Part shown: in pieces, positions 39,686 to 46,311 of the stretch
Layout of the letters: every line of letters begins with the position of its first letter
Numbering within the stretch: position 1 is the stretch's first letter
From: Mycolicibacterium tokaiense
GTDB lineage: Bacteria > Actinomycetota > Actinomycetes > Mycobacteriales > Mycobacteriaceae
Assembly (NCBI RefSeq): GCF_010725885.1
Contig: NZ_AP022600.1
Coordinates: 3,906,001-3,970,000 of the forward strand
Length of the DNA: 64,000 nucleotides
Reading direction: 5' to 3'
Made by a program: the position numbers and the translations under genes
The notes under the pieces: generated by a model
Databases searched by the model: none
What the model was told of the DNA's origin: nothing
What the model saw: only the letters and a program-made list of their open reading frames with translations

Positions 39686-39746
39686 GAAGTCAACGGGGCC
39701 GATACGCTGGCGTCCGGGGTAGGGGACACCAGTGAGGAGTTTTGCG

Positions 39747-41480
39747 ATGACGACGGTTGCCGATCATGTCATCTCCGTGTTGCAGCGCAGCGGGGTGCAA
39801 CGGGTCTACGGCCTGCCCGGCGACAGTCTCAACGGTCTGACCGACGCGATCCGCCGCGCACCCGACTTCACCTGGGAACACGTTCGCCACGAAGAGGCCG
39901 CCGCCTTCGCCGCCGCGGCCGACGCTGCGTTGAGCGGGCAGCTGGCCGTGTGTGCGGGCAGTTGCGGCCCGGGAAACCTCCACCTGATCAACGGGCTGTA
40001 CGACGCGCAGCGCAGCCGGGTCCCGGTACTGGCCCTGGCCGCCCACATTCCGCGCACCGAGATCGGCTCGGAGTACTTCCAGGAGACGCACCCGCAGGAA
40101 CTGTTCAAAGACTGCAGCGTGTACTGCGAACTGGTGAGCACGCCGGAGATGCTGCCGCGCATCCTGGCCATGGCGATGCGCGCTGCCGTGGAGGAGAACG
40201 GCGTGGCGGTGGTGGTGGTGCCGGGTGAGGTGTTCACCGCCAAAGCCGAGGAATCGCCGTGGAGCACCGCGATTCTTCCCACCCAGTCGGTGGTGCGCCC
40301 GGACGACACCGCCCTCACCCAGGCCGCGGCCGTTCTCGACGCCGCCACCAACGTCACCATCTTGGCCGGGGCCGGAGTGGCGGGTTCGCACGCCGCGCTG
40401 ATCCAGCTGGCCGAGACGCTGCAGGCGCCGATCGTTCATGCACTGCGCGGCAAGGAGTTCGTGGAGTACGACAACCCCTATGACGTCGGCATGACGGGGC
40501 TGCTGGGCTTCGCTTCGGGGTACAAGGCCATCAAGGAGGCCGATGTCCTGCTGATGCTGGGGACGGACTTCCCGTACCCCCAGTTCTACCCCGAGGGCGC
40601 CACCGTGATCCAGGTGGACATCCGGGGCCGCCACATCGGGCGCCGCACGCCGGTGGACGTCGCCCTGGTCGGTGATGTCGGCGACACCCTCGCCGCCCTG
40701 CAACCAATGGTGACGCGCAAGTCCGACGGCGCACACCTGCAACGGTGCCTGCACCACTACACCAAGACCCGCAAGTCCCTGGACGCCCTGGCGGTCAACG
40801 ACCGCGACAAGGCCCCGATCAGGCCGGAATACCTTGCCGCACTTGCCAGCCGGATGGCGACCGAGGACGCGGTGTTCACCGTGGACGTGGGTTCGCCGGT
40901 GGTGTGGGCGGCCCGCTACCTGCAGATGAACGGCCGCAGGCGCCTGCTGGGCTCGTTCAATCACGGCACCATGGCCTGCGCCCTGCCACTGGCCATCGGC
41001 GCCCAGACCCCCGACCGCGGCCGGCAGGTGGTGGCGTTCGCCGGCGACGGCGGCCTGACCATGCTGTTCGGTGAACTGATCACGCTGATGCAGAACAAGT
41101 TGCCGGTCAAGGTGGTGGTGTTCAACAACTCGTCGCTGAACTTCGTCGAACTCGAGATGAAGGCCGCCGGGATCGTGAATTTCGGGACCGAGCTGGAGAA
41201 TCCGAACTTCGCCGCCGTGGCGCAGGCGATGGGGATGTTCGGCAGGCGGGTGGAACAGCCCGGGGATCTCGAAGCCGCGCTGCGGGACGCCTTCGCCCAT
41301 CCCGGGCCTGCCGTCATCGATGTGGTGACCGCCCGTCAGGAATTGTCGATCCCGCCCGCGATCACCGTGGAGCAGGCAAAGGGCTTCTCCCTGTATGCCA
41401 TTCGGACCATCCTGGCCGGGCGCGCCGACGAGCTGCTGGACCTGGTGAGCACCAACGTGGCGCGCCGGCTGCTGGACTGA
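39747..41480 (+). CDS. poxB: Thiamine-pyrophosphate-dependent pyruvate oxidase/dehydrogenase, PoxB-like
   Basis: 577 aa from ATG 39747 with GAGGAG 7 nt upstream. ThDP enzyme with the N-terminal catalytic Glu in WEHVRHEEAAAFAA, a central FAD-type domain (LAGAGVAGSHAAL) and the C-terminal ThDP motif AGDGGLTMLFGELITLMQNKLPVKVVVFNN. It resembles quinone-linked pyruvate dehydrogenase (PoxB), which turns pyruvate into acetate and CO2 and passes electrons to menaquinone. Distinction from acetolactate-synthase-like enzymes is by overall similarity. It is followed after 2 bp by an SDR gene. Confidence 0.87.
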   Translation: MTTVADHVISVLQRSGVQRVYGLPGDSLNGLTDAIRRAPDFTWEHVRHEEAAAFAAAADAALSGQLAVCAGSCGPGNLHLINGLYDAQRSRVPVLALAAHIPRTEIGSEYFQETHPQELFKDCSVYCELVSTPEMLPRILAMAMRAAVEENGVAVVVVPGEVFTAKAEESPWSTAILPTQSVVRPDDTALTQAAAVLDAATNVTILAGAGVAGSHAALIQLAETLQAPIVHALRGKEFVEYDNPYDVGMTGLLGFASGYKAIKEADVLLMLGTDFPYPQFYPEGATVIQVDIRGRHIGRRTPVDVALVGDVGDTLAALQPMVTRKSDGAHLQRCLHHYTKTRKSLDALAVNDRDKAPIRPEYLAALASRMATEDAVFTVDVGSPVVWAARYLQMNGRRRLLGSFNHGTMACALPLAIGAQTPDRGRQVVAFAGDGGLTMLFGELITLMQNKLPVKVVVFNNSSLNFVELEMKAAGIVNFGTELENPNFAAVAQAMGMFGRRVEQPGDLEAALRDAFAHPGPAVIDVVTARQELSIPPAITVEQAKGFSLYAIRTILAGRADELLDLVSTNVARRLLD

Positions 41481-42387: not shown

Positions 42388-43449
42388 GTGACCCAGACGT
42401 CGAGTGACACTCTGACCGACCGCGAGGTCGACGCCCTGGACAACTGGGTCCGGGCGCAGTGCATCGGTTCCGGGGTCACCGGCGTCGAACCACTGACCGG
42501 CGGCACCCAGAACATCGTGGTGCGGTTGACAATCGATGACCGGAGCCTGGTGCTGCGCCGCCCGCCCCTGCACCCGCGCCCCAACAGCAACCGCACCATG
42601 CAACGCGAGATCGCCGTGCTGAGCACGTTGGCAGGCAGCGACGTACCGCACCCCAGGCTCATCCGCAGCTGCGAAGATCTCGACGTCCTCGGCGTGGTGT
42701 TCTACCTGATGGAAGATGTCGACGGGTTCAACCCCGGCGCCGAGGTGGCGCCCGCCTACAGCCGCGACGCCGGGATGCGCCACCGGGTGGGCCTGAACTA
42801 CGCCGGTGCGCTGGCCCGGCTGGGCCGGGCCCGCTGGCGTGACCTGCCGCTGCAGGCACTGAAACGACCCGGTTCCTTTCTGAGCCGGCAGGTCCCCGGC
42901 TTCCTGAAGCTGCTGGACGGCTACCGCGCGCTCGGCGGCTACTCACCCGAATCACTGCCCGCGGTAGGCGAATTGGCGCAGTGGCTGACCGACCACCGAC
43001 CCCCCGACGGCGAGCCGGGCATCATGCACGGCGACGCCCACCTCAACAACGTCCTGCTGCGACGGGAGGTTCCCGAGGTGGCGGCGTTCGTGGACTGGGA
43101 GATGTGCACCATCGGCGACCCGCTGCTCGACCTCGGGTGGGTCCTGGTCTGTTGGCCGCACGATCCCGATCCCATCAATGCCGGCTCGGAACTGGCAGCA
43201 CTGGGGGGACTGCCCGATCGCGCCGAGCTCGTCGAGGCCTACCGCGGGGCGGGCGGCCGGGAACCGGCCCACCTGCACTGGTACATCGCGATGGCGTGTT
43301 TCAAACTCGCGATCGTCATCGAGGGCACCTATGCGCGCTACCTGGCCGGGATGGCGCACCGCGAAGCCGGGGAACGTTTGCACGACAACGCCGCCAACCT
43401 GATCCGGCTCGGCGGTCAGGTGGCCACCGGCGATCACCCGTTCCGCTGA
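42388..43449 (+). CDS. APH-fold phosphotransferase (ACAD10/11 N-terminal-domain-like)
   Basis: 353 aa from GTG 42388. Aminoglycoside-phosphotransferase/kinase fold: VLRRPPLHPRPNSNRTMQRE (nucleotide-binding Lys/Arg region), catalytic HGDAHLNNVLL (Brenner motif) and the metal-binding VDWEMCTIGDPLLDLGW. Mycobacteria have many such proteins. The similarity to the kinase domain of ACAD10/11 suggests phosphorylation of 4-hydroxyacyl-CoA in hydroxy-acid catabolism rather than drug resistance. This is inferred from family resemblance. Confidence 0.85.
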   Translation: MTQTSSDTLTDREVDALDNWVRAQCIGSGVTGVEPLTGGTQNIVVRLTIDDRSLVLRRPPLHPRPNSNRTMQREIAVLSTLAGSDVPHPRLIRSCEDLDVLGVVFYLMEDVDGFNPGAEVAPAYSRDAGMRHRVGLNYAGALARLGRARWRDLPLQALKRPGSFLSRQVPGFLKLLDGYRALGGYSPESLPAVGELAQWLTDHRPPDGEPGIMHGDAHLNNVLLRREVPEVAAFVDWEMCTIGDPLLDLGWVLVCWPHDPDPINAGSELAALGGLPDRAELVEAYRGAGGREPAHLHWYIAMACFKLAIVIEGTYARYLAGMAHREAGERLHDNAANLIRLGGQVATGDHPFR

Positions 43450-43462
43450 CCGCCGAAAATGG

Positions 43463-43500
43463 TTGCGCGCGCCCGCCGCGGGCCGCTACTGTCGCTGACG
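43463..43500 (+). promoter_or_regulatory. Promoter of the leader peptide and LeuA-domain gene
   Basis: TTGCGC (43463-43468), 18-bp spacer, TACTGT (43487-43492), 7 bp, GTG at 43500. The geometry equals that of the promoter at 7447 and predicts a leaderless transcript beginning at the leader-peptide start codon. Confidence 0.65.
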
Positions 43501-43541
43501 TGCGCGTGATTCTCGTAGTAGCTCCCCGCAGCGGGGTCTGA
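43500..43541 (+). CDS. Branched-chain amino acid leader peptide, 13 aa (MRVILVVAPRSGV)
   Basis: GTG 43500 to TGA 43539-43541. Codons 3-7 are Val-Ile-Leu-Val-Val, including two GTA codons, which are rare in such GC-rich genes. It is the sensor of the attenuator that overlaps its second half. Ribosome stalling on these codons when branched-chain aminoacyl-tRNAs are short would free the antiterminator helix. The peptide itself need have no function. Confidence 0.75.
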   Translation: MRVILVVAPRSGV

Positions 43542-43569
43542 TCCAGACCGACCCCCCGCTGTGGGTCGG
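43524..43569 (+). terminator. Transcription attenuator with pause, antiterminator and terminator hairpins
   Basis: Pause hairpin CCCCG/CGGGG (43524-43528 with 43532-43536). Antiterminator AGCGG+GGTCTG (43530-43540) pairing with CAGACC (43544-43549) and CCGCT (43556-43560). Terminator CCGACCC/GGGTCGG (43548-43554 with 43563-43569). The last two share bases and exclude each other. The leader stop codon lies in the antiterminator, so a ribosome that finishes the peptide would favour termination. There is no U-tract. Confidence 0.65.
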
Positions 43570-43612
43570 ACGCTACCGTCGGTCGCCTCCCTCGAGTCGA
43601 GAAGACCGGTTC

Positions 43613-44071
43613 ATGAGCACTCCCACACTGACAAGCATCGCCACCACCCTCACGCCGCTGCCGCGCGGTCTACGGGAGCGCGCCCAGGACATGTCCTGGC
43701 CCGACTTCCTGGCTGCCTACGGGCCCACCTCAGGGCCACTGGAGCTGATCGGCTGGCAGGGCGCCCATCCCTTGCGGCGCTCCGGGCCGCAGGTGCGCCG
43801 GTTCTGCGCCACCGTCCGCTACGGCGACACCATGGGACTGTGGTCGGCGACGGCCGCCGCGCCGATCGCGGCCCTCACCGACATGCTCTACCAGCACCAG
43901 CTGGGGATGGAGATGCTGAACTTCCACCAGGTGCAGATGGGGCGGGACACCGTTACCTTCATCCGCGGCACCGACGGCACTGCGGACGCGTGGGCGATGG
44001 CGTGGGCCGAGGACGGCACCCAGTCGGCGTTGCGGGCCGTGATCGCCTGCGCCAACCGGCTGGCTCAGTAG
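43613..44071 (+). CDS. Standalone LeuA allosteric (dimerisation) domain-like protein, 152 aa
   Basis: The last about 90 residues match the C-terminal regulatory domain of 2-isopropylmalate synthase: GPLELIGWQGAHPL, AAPIAALTDMLYQHQLGMEMLNFHQV, and DGTQSALRAVIACANRL, the equivalent of the ASLRAVVSAVNR end of mycobacterial LeuA. The catalytic TIM barrel is absent. The upstream Ile/Leu/Val attenuator supports a role in branched-chain amino acid metabolism, perhaps leucine sensing or modulation of full-length LeuA/homocitrate-synthase enzymes. Such short proteins are sometimes labelled homocitrate synthase, which cannot be right without the barrel. Confidence 0.7.
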   Translation: MSTPTLTSIATTLTPLPRGLRERAQDMSWPDFLAAYGPTSGPLELIGWQGAHPLRRSGPQVRRFCATVRYGDTMGLWSATAAAPIAALTDMLYQHQLGMEMLNFHQVQMGRDTVTFIRGTDGTADAWAMAWAEDGTQSALRAVIACANRLAQ

Positions 44072-45549
44072 AGCGGCCGCAAGGTGATCGGCATGCCGTC
44101 CATGGGCACCGGCATGCCGCCGTAGTCCAGCCGGGACCGGTAACCCGGGCGCGGCGGCTCCAGGCGGTAGCGCCGCAGCAGGCGGTGCATCACGGTCTTG
44201 ATCTCGAGCTGGCCGAACACCATGCCGATGCACTTGTGGGCTCCGCCGCCGAACGGGGCGAACGCGTAGCGGTGCTGCTTGTGCTCGTTGCGCGGTTCAG
44301 CGAAGCGGTCCGGGTCGAACTTCTCCGGGTCCGTCCACAGCTCGGGCAGGTGGTGATTGACCGACGGCCAGGTGACGATGTTGGTGTTGGCCGGGATGAA
44401 ATGGCCCAGCAGTTCGGTGTCGCGCACCGTCGAACGCACGTTGAATGGCAGCGGGGTCACCAGGCGCAACGACTCGTTGATGACCAGATCCAGGGTCTCG
44501 AGCTTGTCCAGAGCCTCGATGTCCAGCGGTCCGTCGCCGAGGCGGTCGCATTCATCGCGGCACCGGTCCTGCCAGTCCTGGTTGGCGGCCAGGTGGTAGG
44601 CCATGGTGGTCAGCGTCGACGTCGATGTGTCGTGCGCGGCCATCATCAGGAAGATCATGTGGTTCACGATGTCCTGATCGCTGAAGCTGTTGCCGTCTTC
44701 GTCCTCGGTGTGGCACAACACCGTGAGCATGTCGGTGCCCTCGGACCGGCGCCGTTCTTTGACCCGCTCCTCGAAGTAGGTGTCGAGCACCTTGCGTGCC
44801 TGCAGCCCGCGCCACCACTTGAACGGCGGCAGCGGAGTGCGGATGATGGCGCCGCCGGCGCGGGTGGTCATGGTGAAGGCGTCGTTGACCTTGGTCACCA
44901 GTTCTTTGTCGCTGCCCGGTTCGTGGCCCATGAACACCACCGACGCGATGTCGAGCGTCAGTTCCTTGACCGCCGGGTAGAACAGGAAGCGCGGATCGTT
45001 CTCCACCCAGTCGTTGGCGATGACGTGCGAGGCCACCTTGTCGATGTGCTCGACGTACCCGGACAGCCGGGAGCGGGTGAACGCCTCTTGCATGATCCGG
45101 CGGTGGAACATGTGCTCTTCGAAATCGAGCATCATCAGGCCGCGGTTGAAGAACGGGCCGATGACCGGATCCCAGCCCTTCTGCGAGAAGTCCTTGTTGC
45201 GGTTGGAGAACACCGCCTGGGTGGCGTCGGGTCCGAGTGCCACGACGGCGGGCAGAGCCGGGGAGTAGGCGTAGTGCAGGGGGCCGAACTTCTTGTACAC
45301 CTGCAGCAGGTACTCCGGGCCGCCGCGGAACGTCTCGATCATGTGCCCCAGGATCGGCACGCCCGAGTCGCCCATCACCGGCTTGAGGTCGCTGCCCGCC
45401 GGCGGCTCGGCGAGAACGAACTGCTTGAAGTCGTGATCGCGCAGCCGCTTCTCCACCGTGCCCAGTCCGGGCATGTTGTTCAGCGTGGGCGTCAAGCGGC
45501 GCTTGGCCTGGTCGATCAGGTAGTCGGAAGTGTTGATGGTGGCTGGCAT
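44065..45549 (-). CDS. cyp136: Cytochrome P450 CYP136
   Basis: 494 aa from ATG 45549, with GAGGA 6 nt upstream. I helix MMAAHDTSTSTL, ExxR in ESLRL, PERF-type DPDRF, heme loop FAPFGGGAHKCIG with the ligand Cys. Long N-terminus without a clear membrane anchor. Position beside a divergent TetR and an SDR gene, between ligB and dinB2, matches Rv3059 (cyp136) of M. tuberculosis. The substrate is not established; homology to CYP51/CYP26-like P450s suggests a sterol or terpenoid. The 3' end overlaps the LeuA-domain gene by 7 bp. Confidence 0.92.
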   Translation of the reverse strand: MPATINTSDYLIDQAKRRLTPTLNNMPGLGTVEKRLRDHDFKQFVLAEPPAGSDLKPVMGDSGVPILGHMIETFRGGPEYLLQVYKKFGPLHYAYSPALPAVVALGPDATQAVFSNRNKDFSQKGWDPVIGPFFNRGLMMLDFEEHMFHRRIMQEAFTRSRLSGYVEHIDKVASHVIANDWVENDPRFLFYPAVKELTLDIASVVFMGHEPGSDKELVTKVNDAFTMTTRAGGAIIRTPLPPFKWWRGLQARKVLDTYFEERVKERRRSEGTDMLTVLCHTEDEDGNSFSDQDIVNHMIFLMMAAHDTSTSTLTTMAYHLAANQDWQDRCRDECDRLGDGPLDIEALDKLETLDLVINESLRLVTPLPFNVRSTVRDTELLGHFIPANTNIVTWPSVNHHLPELWTDPEKFDPDRFAEPRNEHKQHRYAFAPFGGGAHKCIGMVFGQLEIKTVMHRLLRRYRLEPPRPGYRSRLDYGGMPVPMDGMPITLRPLY

Positions 45550-45614
45550 GAGCACTCCTCGAGAAGCGTCGATCCGATGTGGCGTGAGCCACTCATCACA
45601 TCTTCAACGCCAAT

Positions 45615-45666: not shown

Positions 45667-46311
45667 GTGAGTGTTCCTCAGCAGTCCGATCAGGGCGAAT
45701 CGGTACCACGCAGGCGCGGCGATCGGCAGCGCCAGGCCATCGTCAACGCCGTGCGGGAGCTGCTCGAGGAGACCCAGTTCGCCGATCTGTCGGTGAGCAC
45801 CATCAGCGACCGAGCCGGGGTGGCCCGGTCCGGCTTCTACTTCTACTTCGATACCAAGTACGCGGTGCTGGCCCAGATCCTCGCCGAGGCCACCCAGGAG
45901 CTGGAAGAGCTGACCCACTTCTTTGCTCCGCGGGGCGCAGCGGAGACGCCTGCGGCTTACGCCAAGCGGATGGTCGGCAGTGCCGTGGTGGTCTTCGCCC
46001 ACAACGACCCGGTGATGGCGGCGTGCAACCTGGCCCGCAATGCCGATGCCGAGATCCGCAAGATCCTGGATGCGCAGATCGACACCATCATCAACCAGAT
46101 CGTCGCCAACATCTCGGCCGAAGTCGCCGCCGGCACCGCCAATCCGATCAGCGACGACGTCCCGATGCTGGTGCGCACGCTGGGCGCGACCACGGCGTGG
46201 ATGCTCTCGGGCGACTCGACGTTCCTCGGGCCCGACGGCGACCTGCAGCAGGGTGTGGCAGTGCTCGAGCAGCTGTGGCTGCACAGCTTCTGGAGCGGCG
46301 AGCCTCGGTAG
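45667..46311 (+). CDS. TetR-family regulator, divergent from cyp136
   Basis: 214 aa from GTG 45667. N-terminal helix-turn-helix at about residues 20-65 (RQAIVNAVRELLEE ... STISDRAGVARSGFYFYFDTK), then an all-helical ligand domain with many Ala/Asp residues. Homologue by position of Rv3058c. A perfect palindrome lies 37 bp upstream of its start. It is followed after 10 bp by an SDR gene and probably represses cyp136, the SDR and itself until a lipophilic ligand binds. Confidence 0.9.
   Translation: MSVPQQSDQGESVPRRRGDRQRQAIVNAVRELLEETQFADLSVSTISDRAGVARSGFYFYFDTKYAVLAQILAEATQELEELTHFFAPRGAAETPAAYAKRMVGSAVVVFAHNDPVMAACNLARNADAEIRKILDAQIDTIINQIVANISAEVAAGTANPISDDVPMLVRTLGATTAWMLSGDSTFLGPDGDLQQGVAVLEQLWLHSFWSGEPR

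Follow-up and report, generated by a model that had tools for sequence, protein, structure and literature searches.

A conserved mycobacterial leader with valine codons, apparently a variant of the LEU element, precedes a predicted stand-alone LeuA regulatory-domain gene

The actinobacterial LEU element of leuA (Seliverstov et al. 2005, PMC1262725) consists, according to the accessible text of that paper, of a short ORF with a run of branched-chain amino acid codons, a helix around a small hairpin containing the stop codon, and a pseudoknot arm downstream; the same text reports that mutations of the Leu codons at a Streptomyces leuA leader do not fit classical attenuation. In M. tuberculosis, the leuA leader has 13 codons, three of them for Leu, and short transcripts have been found there, as stated in the accessible part of PMC3526491. 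Leu, Val and Ile codons, including GUA, also occur in the ilvB/ilvB1 attenuators of Mycobacterium and Corynebacterium (accessible parts of PMC13236596 and PMC1262725), and a leader peptide without a ribosome-binding site is known at ilvBNC of C. glutamicum, going by the title of a reference in PMC4046766.

We analysed a mycobacterial locus at which a leader of this kind precedes a gene for what appears to be a detached regulatory domain of LeuA, hereafter the orphan gene. The leader shares with the LEU element, as far as described in the accessible text of PMC1262725, the short ORF with its branched-chain codon run, the helix around the stop-codon hairpin and the downstream pseudoknot arm, the last likeness being judged from that text and from position. 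It differs in carrying Val (GTA GTA) and not a Leu codon run, in that its codon run pairs not with the ribosome site but with GCUA(C), which lies upstream of that site, and in preceding a detached regulatory domain; such an orphan domain gene is not mentioned in the accessible text of the 2005 paper. The ilvB/ilvB1 leaders, for their part, have similar codons and belong to the branched-chain pathway as the orphan leader does, whereas at ilvB1 the leader contains a U-tract terminator and the enzyme under control is acetohydroxyacid synthase (accessible part of PMC13236596). A search of the open literature, which leaves most subscription papers outside its scope, found no paper on either the orphan gene or its leader.

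The window, i.e. the whole stretch of 64,000 nucleotides that was analysed, comes from the 6.33 Mb genome of Mycolicibacterium tokaiense, and the named relatives at the orphan-gene locus are mycobacteria. The locus contains the following features.

43463-43468, plus strand: weak -35-like hexamer TTGCGC, 18 nt upstream of the -10 box, read from the sequence
43487-43492, plus strand: -10 box TACTGT, 7 nt before the leader GTG, in leaderless geometry
43500-43541, plus strand: leader peptide ORF MRVILVVAPRSGV, 13 codons from GTG 43500, stop TGA 43539-43541 included
43515-43520, plus strand: putative regulatory codons GTA GTA (Val-Val), a pair found 99 times among 110 leaders
43613-44071, plus strand: predicted stand-alone LeuA regulatory domain gene, 152 aa, from profile, fold and family matches
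44065-45555, minus strand: cytochrome P450 (PF00067, Pfam), convergent with the orphan gene
45667-46311, plus strand: TetR-family gene (PF00440, weak EthR_C match, Pfam)

The leader frame reads M R V I L V V A P R S G V, exactly the 13-codon frame from GTG 43500 with consecutive Val-Ile-Leu-Val-Val codons that the initial annotation had reported. A sample of 110 loci with the orphan gene was compiled from 80 named loci (the best 80 of 220 stretches found by scanning genome contigs with the protein alignment A1), 29 loci from a profile search of the family genomes, and the window's own locus; the contig scan with the single 152-aa protein as the query found no relative. As these sequences are related and not independent, counts drawn from them overstate the evidence. 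The conserved RNA element was found at all 110 loci, and the start codon and open frame of the leader were kept at every one of them (GTG at 84, ATG at 26). A TANNNT -10 box was located 6, 7 or 8 nt 5' of the leader start at all 110 loci (2, 57 and 51 loci, respectively). The control, made up of all start codons of these loci and thus including the leaders, gave 207 of 25317; the leader start was picked partly with the help of the -10 box. TTGC-type hexamers were visible by eye, without counting, at a similar position in many relatives, and a scan of 43400-44150 for the strict sigma-70 consensus detected no promoter. The leader is real and conserved. The leaderless promoter geometry previously proposed for it held throughout the sample, and the transcript is predicted to begin at or beside the leader start codon.

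Adjacent Val codons were present in 107 of the 110 leaders, and the three exceptions are L065, whose codon run has a single Val, and L095 and L100, where a changed frame gives LVF. GTA accounted for 212 of the 355 Val codons in the 110 leaders as against 5 of the 160 Val codons in five genes neighbouring the window's leader, which bears out the earlier description of the two GTA codons as rare. Any Ile was found in just 19 of the 110 leaders. Of the Ile-Leu-Val-Val codons, the Val-Val pair is thus conserved and Ile is not. The conserved sensing codons being Val-Val and neither Leu nor Ile, valine is a better guess for the signal than leucine, the response to which had been suggested earlier. 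The orphan leaders read VV and mostly end with RSGV; leuA leaders carry LLL runs and mostly end with R-G/D-G-V/A. In L020, L044 and L058, the Arg codon of the leader is changed to CAC (His) and the matching RNA pair to A-U, and in L095 and L100 the last residues of the leader are lost and the RNA is retained. The peptide therefore changes in these leaders with the pairs kept, indicating that the 3' part of the leader is kept as RNA and not as peptide. A role of the leader end as an arrest peptide was rejected on the same observations.

An alignment of 59 orphan-gene leaders was folded with RNAalifold. The consensus consisted of a base stem (P0), an 11-bp helix (P1) pairing the leader's end with the strand CCCCGCUGUGG, a hairpin that includes the stop codon (P2), and another, short hairpin at the ribosome site. 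The elements and the numbers of alignment cells that are paired are as follows.

43516-43522, plus strand: 5' arm of P0, which overlaps the Val codons and has the consensus sequence UAGU (43516-43519) across the family
43572-43576, plus strand: 3' arm of P0 (GCUAC), in the window fold and the consensus fold
43525-43536, plus strand: 5' arm of P1 (CCCGCAGCGGGG), 700/708 cells paired with 43554-43565
43554-43565, plus strand: 3' arm of P1 (CCCCGCUGUGGG), from the consensus fold and the pair counts
43537-43547, plus strand: P2 hairpin UCUG-AUC-CAGA, containing the leader stop codon, 223/235 cells paired
43546-43552, plus strand: 5' arm of the pseudoknot (GACCGAC), 413/413 cells paired with 43578-43584 in 59 rows
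43578-43584, plus strand: strand GUCGGUC, which can serve either the pseudoknot (as its 3' arm) or the ribosome-site hairpin (as its 5' arm)
43599-43609, plus strand: Shine-Dalgarno GAGAAG and, after it, GACCGG as a possible pairing partner of GUCGGUC, 324/352 cells paired
43548-43569, plus strand: hairpin earlier named the terminator (CCGACCC/GGGUCGG), complementary, no U-run, 372/393 cells paired

In the minimum-energy fold of the window's own leader, the 5' arm of P0 is GUAGC (43518-43522). The pseudoknot pairing was complete although the alignment had been built without reference to it, and all seven of its pairs were formed in 34 of 36 orphan and leuA leaders, with one mismatch each in L141 and L168. 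Its sixth pair differed between the two groups, being A-U in 22 of the 25 orphan leaders and G-C in all 11 leuA leaders, a count that left three antisense rows out of the alignment and located the strands by motifs favouring pairing. The ribosome-site hairpin showed changes from C-G to U-A in outgroups. With strands again located by motifs that favour pairing, the ribosome-site partner was G in 74 of 90 scorable distinct loci with the shared strand GUCGGUC (16 more were unscorable). Among the 18 distinct loci with GUUGGUC (one GCUGGUC included), 14 had A as the partner and 2 had G; the pair was broken in 18 of 108 scorable distinct loci, 16 of the 124 loci not being scorable. P1 and the pseudoknot are the best-kept pairings, and the hairpin over the ribosome site is kept less strictly.

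Covariation across the relatives, which had been proposed as a check on the helices, was modest because the block is nearly invariant: changes on both sides occurred in 1 of the 23 consensus pairs, with a covariation term of -0.56 kcal/mol for the 59 leaders, so that the structure rests mostly on the invariance of the pairings. The window leader alone folded little better than its shuffles (z -1.37; 18 of 200 shuffles were as good), and the case for the structure therefore rests on conservation. Rfam searches gave no family at the gathering threshold over the window and one unrelated weak match (E 0.37) over four loci; neither search turned up the LEU element in Rfam.

A covariance model built from the 59 orphan-gene leaders (R1) was searched against the window's genome, where it scored 130 bits at the orphan leader and, over the whole model, 46 bits at the genome's own leuA leader (E 5e-10, E-values being rough owing to a short calibration); further weak matches in the same genome had E-values of 0.27 and 1.39. 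The leader peptide of this leuA is MQRVLLLGRRDGV. As R1 finds the genome's own leuA leader, the orphan leader appears to be a paralogous variant of the actinobacterial LEU element, and what is new about it is its valine codons and the orphan sensor domain. R1 matched in 135 of 151 family genomes, leuA leaders included, and in 16 genomes of other families of the order. Ten genomes, nine of them with at least three matches, gave 31 matches in total, of which 8 were orphan leaders and 20 had their downstream ORFs read, two antisense matches and one without a locus being left out. Behind the 21 loci formed by these 20 and the window genome's own leuA, we found 18 full LeuA-type ORFs, one orphan domain and two ORFs that were neither, where the LeuA-type call was made by eye on the first 90 residues and both matches of the last kind had E about 0.009. 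Among 18 leuA leaders checked, 17 had a leaderless -10 box 6-8 nt before the start.

Seven of the ten genomes (G047, G099, G009, G083, G025, G065 and G086) were seen by eye to have two full LeuA-type genes, each lying behind its own Leu-codon LEU-type leader (paired loci L156/L165, L154/L164, L158/L168, L157/L169, L159/L166, L163/L167 and L152/L160).

The gene behind the orphan leader had been taken to encode only the allosteric domain of LeuA, an assignment that profile and fold comparisons now support. The window protein alone gave 0 Pfam matches and no NCBIfam match, and a single-sequence PDB search with it returned chance-level matches. PF08502 was matched at E <=0.01 by 19 of 26 aligned family members, and the profile of the 26 proteins matched the genome's own full-length LeuA (613-codon open frame, E 1e-9), which is the sole PF08502 match in the window genome. 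The relatives of the 152-aa protein numbered 1249 at E <=0.001; among the best 120 of these, several are named homocitrate or 2-isopropylmalate synthase and five have a precomputed PF08502 match. A profile search of the PDB found LeuA weakly (E 0.007). The AlphaFold model (pLDDT 88.5) contained two beta-beta-beta-alpha units, and its eight best Foldseek matches were chains of M. tuberculosis LeuA (TM 0.70-0.74, E 1e-9 to 1e-8), with 3fig as the best at TM 0.74; the predicted structure thus agrees with a LeuA-domain fold. The PF08502 domain of M. tuberculosis LeuA (1sr9, 3fig) likewise has two such units and a preceding MW..F..Y helix, and a C-terminal SALRAV/ASLRAV motif is common to the orphan protein and LeuA.

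The orphan protein was also aligned with three LeuA C-termini, namely that of the genome's own LeuA and those obtained from two of 12 further regions, the wrong-frame rows L176 and L184 being disregarded. The LPRxL segment and the MW..F..Y linker helix are kept with fewer residues between them, and the catalytic domain is missing, which sets the protein apart from M. tuberculosis LeuA as well. In LeuA, residues of the GNGP and DY motifs have a part in leucine binding. GNGP is changed to xxGP in most of the 26 orphan proteins (AAAP in the window protein), with the N replaced, and the Y of DY is replaced by F within an invariant FHQ in 26 of 26 orphan sequences, the LeuA side of this comparison being three sequences. 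Judging from these alignments and the structural model, the 152-aa protein is a divergent LeuA regulatory domain.

A profile match at E <=0.001 was obtained in 139 of the 151 family genomes, full LeuA included, and among the matches listed about 129 of the 151 had one in a frame shorter than full LeuA; among these listed matches, the shorter frames all had fewer than 300 codons, with the exception of two (447 and 531 codons). A search of 200 genomes from the order at E <=1e-6 gave, outside the family, just two frames of 620 and 625 codons, i.e. full LeuA, so that the orphan gene looks confined to Mycobacteriaceae. Within this family, the leader and the detached LeuA-domain gene are kept across mycobacteria and related genera, and the gene was absent from one of ten same-genus genomes (G085). 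R1 matched none of ten genomes of genus g3 (2-3 Mb genomes). Twelve regions from g3 and other distant relatives were read by eye, and several of them have related leaders and pairing arms, e.g. MRKILVVTGRNGA in L195, or GGACUAAC/GUUGGUCC in L186 as compared with GGACUGAC/GUCGGUCC in L187, L189 and L191. No such leader was seen by eye in the distant relatives L188 and L192. The diverged leaders of genus g3 (L186, L187, L189, L190 and L191), whose arms are of the GUGGAGGC/CCCCUCCA type, could form a subclass of their own. In genera g21 and g25, an in-frame stop was observed within the orphan-gene match (L196, L197; G020, G046, G063, G080, G050 and G067); in L196 and L197 it comes directly after the closing ANRL, and the proteins there may just be a little shorter.

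Among 109 loci, the orphan gene was followed on its 3' side by a convergent P450 match at 85 and by a TetR match at 69, and an APH-type kinase match lay on its 5' side at 32; as the flanks covered at most 3 kb, some of the absences are due to the end of a flank or contig. The P450 match was missing at the 21 loci of other genera and at L023, L032 and L091, where leader and gene are still together. The P450 at 44065-45555 presumably belongs to the CYP136 group. Further upstream in the window, 39732-41480 (plus strand) encodes a ubiquinone-dependent pyruvate dehydrogenase (NF006591, 947.9 bits against a cut-off of 792), and an SDR gene and then an APH-family kinase gene lie downstream of it. Mobility on plasmids was rejected, since one of 72,556 plasmid records matched, with 46% identity over 77% of the protein.

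We regard it as moderately probable that the locus is a duplicated and re-tuned leuA control unit, in which a LEU-type leader read through valine controls an orphan domain that acts on LeuA. The LEU-type leader, together with a gene that retains nothing of LeuA but its regulatory domain and the C-terminal linker helix, would be the duplicated copy; both the duplication and its direction are what we infer. The pseudoknot and the ribosome-site hairpin have the strand GUCGGUC in common, which suggests translational control by strand exchange, possibly together with Rho. The stop codon is 4 bases and the Val codons are 25 bases from the 5' arm of the pseudoknot, so that a ribosome on the stop codon would cover the arm and a ribosome on the Val codons would not. 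With plentiful valyl-tRNA, the ribosome would reach the leader stop, 4 nt before GACCGAC, and hide this arm, and GUCGGUC would then pair over the ribosome site of the gene, keeping its output low. With valyl-tRNA in short supply, the ribosome would halt on GUA GUA, leaving GACCGAC exposed to capture GUCGGUC in the pseudoknot, and the orphan gene would be translated (or escape Rho). Nested folding with the ribosome placed at Val or at the stop gave a mean difference in ribosome-site accessibility of 0.00 (up in 29 of 57), and the mean probability of the GACCGAC/GUCGGUC helix was 0.04 even with the ribosome at Val, by a method that excludes pseudoknots; this outcome lends the proposed exchange no support.

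LeuA consumes 2-ketoisovalerate, the direct precursor of valine. The target of the orphan domain would be LeuA; most likely the orphan would pair with the regulatory domains of the enzyme itself and would lower leucine synthesis, leaving 2-ketoisovalerate for valine. The effector pockets of LeuA are located at the dimer interface, as stated in the accessible part of PMC11057210. Modulation of LeuA by the orphan protein is plausible. Valine as the signal, the way in which the switch runs, an output through translation and not termination, and the protein's partner and effect are likewise what we infer. A tentative and more specific form of the proposal is that the valine-sensing LEU element drives the gene of a detached domain which enters LeuA dimers, shutting or resetting leucine synthesis at low valine, with Leu-coded and Val-coded paralogous switches balancing leucine against valine at the 2-ketoisovalerate branch point across Mycobacteriaceae.

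The initial annotation had instead described a classical attenuator with a 1:2 pause hairpin, a 2:3 antiterminator and a 3:4 intrinsic terminator, which would respond to branched-chain supply in general, as has been suggested for ilvB1 of M. tuberculosis. The complementary segments are indeed located where it had placed them, and a short leader ORF with codons of the pathway is present (adjacent Val in 107 of 110). The 2:3 and 3:4 helices are both complementary and well kept (577/589 cells in the 59 leaders for 2:3, and the 3:4 count listed above), yet the consensus fold contains a different, long helix, in which the bases of the pause hairpin are also used. This pause hairpin stands in part: its three inner pairs are kept (169/177 cells; 181/236 cells overall), and its outer pair is A:G in 46 of 59 rows. 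The terminator itself was not borne out, as the T run within 15 nt 3' of the hairpin never exceeded three at any of the 110 loci and a terminator scan of 43400-44150 found no terminator-like site; an intrinsic terminator was rejected on these grounds, and a classical attenuator depending on one is not supported. Moreover, the 3:4 arm begins 9 nt past the stop codon's first base and would be covered in part by a ribosome on this codon. Attenuation has been proposed with reporter support for ilvB1, which has an LVVI leader and a U-tract (accessible part of PMC13236596), and the short leader transcripts at M. tuberculosis leuA (accessible part of PMC3526491) would fit premature termination. An eight-T run follows the hairpin in the orphan leader L153 (G065), outside the 110, and is possibly a real terminator in that lineage. 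Taken over the sample, we consider classical attenuation improbable. A LEU-type RNA whose reader is a protein, a mechanism put forward for leuA by the authors of the 2005 paper, with the codon run serving mainly as a base-pairing sequence, also seems to us a poor prospect. The largely invariant stretch from P1 to the pseudoknot, the Val codons that double as an arm of the P0 stem, and the Streptomyces codon changes that misfit attenuation (accessible text of PMC1262725) favour it, but the leaderless start codon and open frame are kept at 110 of 110 loci, a branched-chain codon run is kept in Leu and Val leaders alike, and the changed frames of L095 and L100 still read Leu-Val.

The other question concerns the partner of the protein, as the orphan domain might be a sensor or subunit of another enzyme, or a free amino-acid-binding protein. 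Databases name its relatives homocitrate synthase, and the changed GNGP and DY motifs mean that the ligand site of the orphan may differ; the Mycobacterium orphan gene also adjoins a P450 and a TetR-type gene and not leu genes. Against this, leader and gene stay together at the 21 other-genus loci where the P450 match is absent, and 19 of the 21 R1 loci precede a LeuA-type gene or the orphan domain, the other two being the matches with E about 0.009. A partner other than LeuA is thus doubtful in our view, though it deserves more weight than the two alternative readings of the RNA.

On the reading of a duplicated and re-tuned leuA control unit, the valine codons in place of leucine codons suggest a link between valine supply and leucine synthesis. 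If this is true, a joint duplication copied both a regulatory RNA and the sensor domain belonging to the enzyme under its control, and the pair was re-tuned to answer to a neighbouring amino acid. The finding would also point to a function for a widespread small family often labelled homocitrate or 2-isopropylmalate synthase, and it offers a natural codon swap for probing how the LEU element works, which the 2005 paper left open according to its accessible text (PMC1262725). It may likewise bear on how mycobacteria share 2-ketoisovalerate among valine, leucine and pantothenate.
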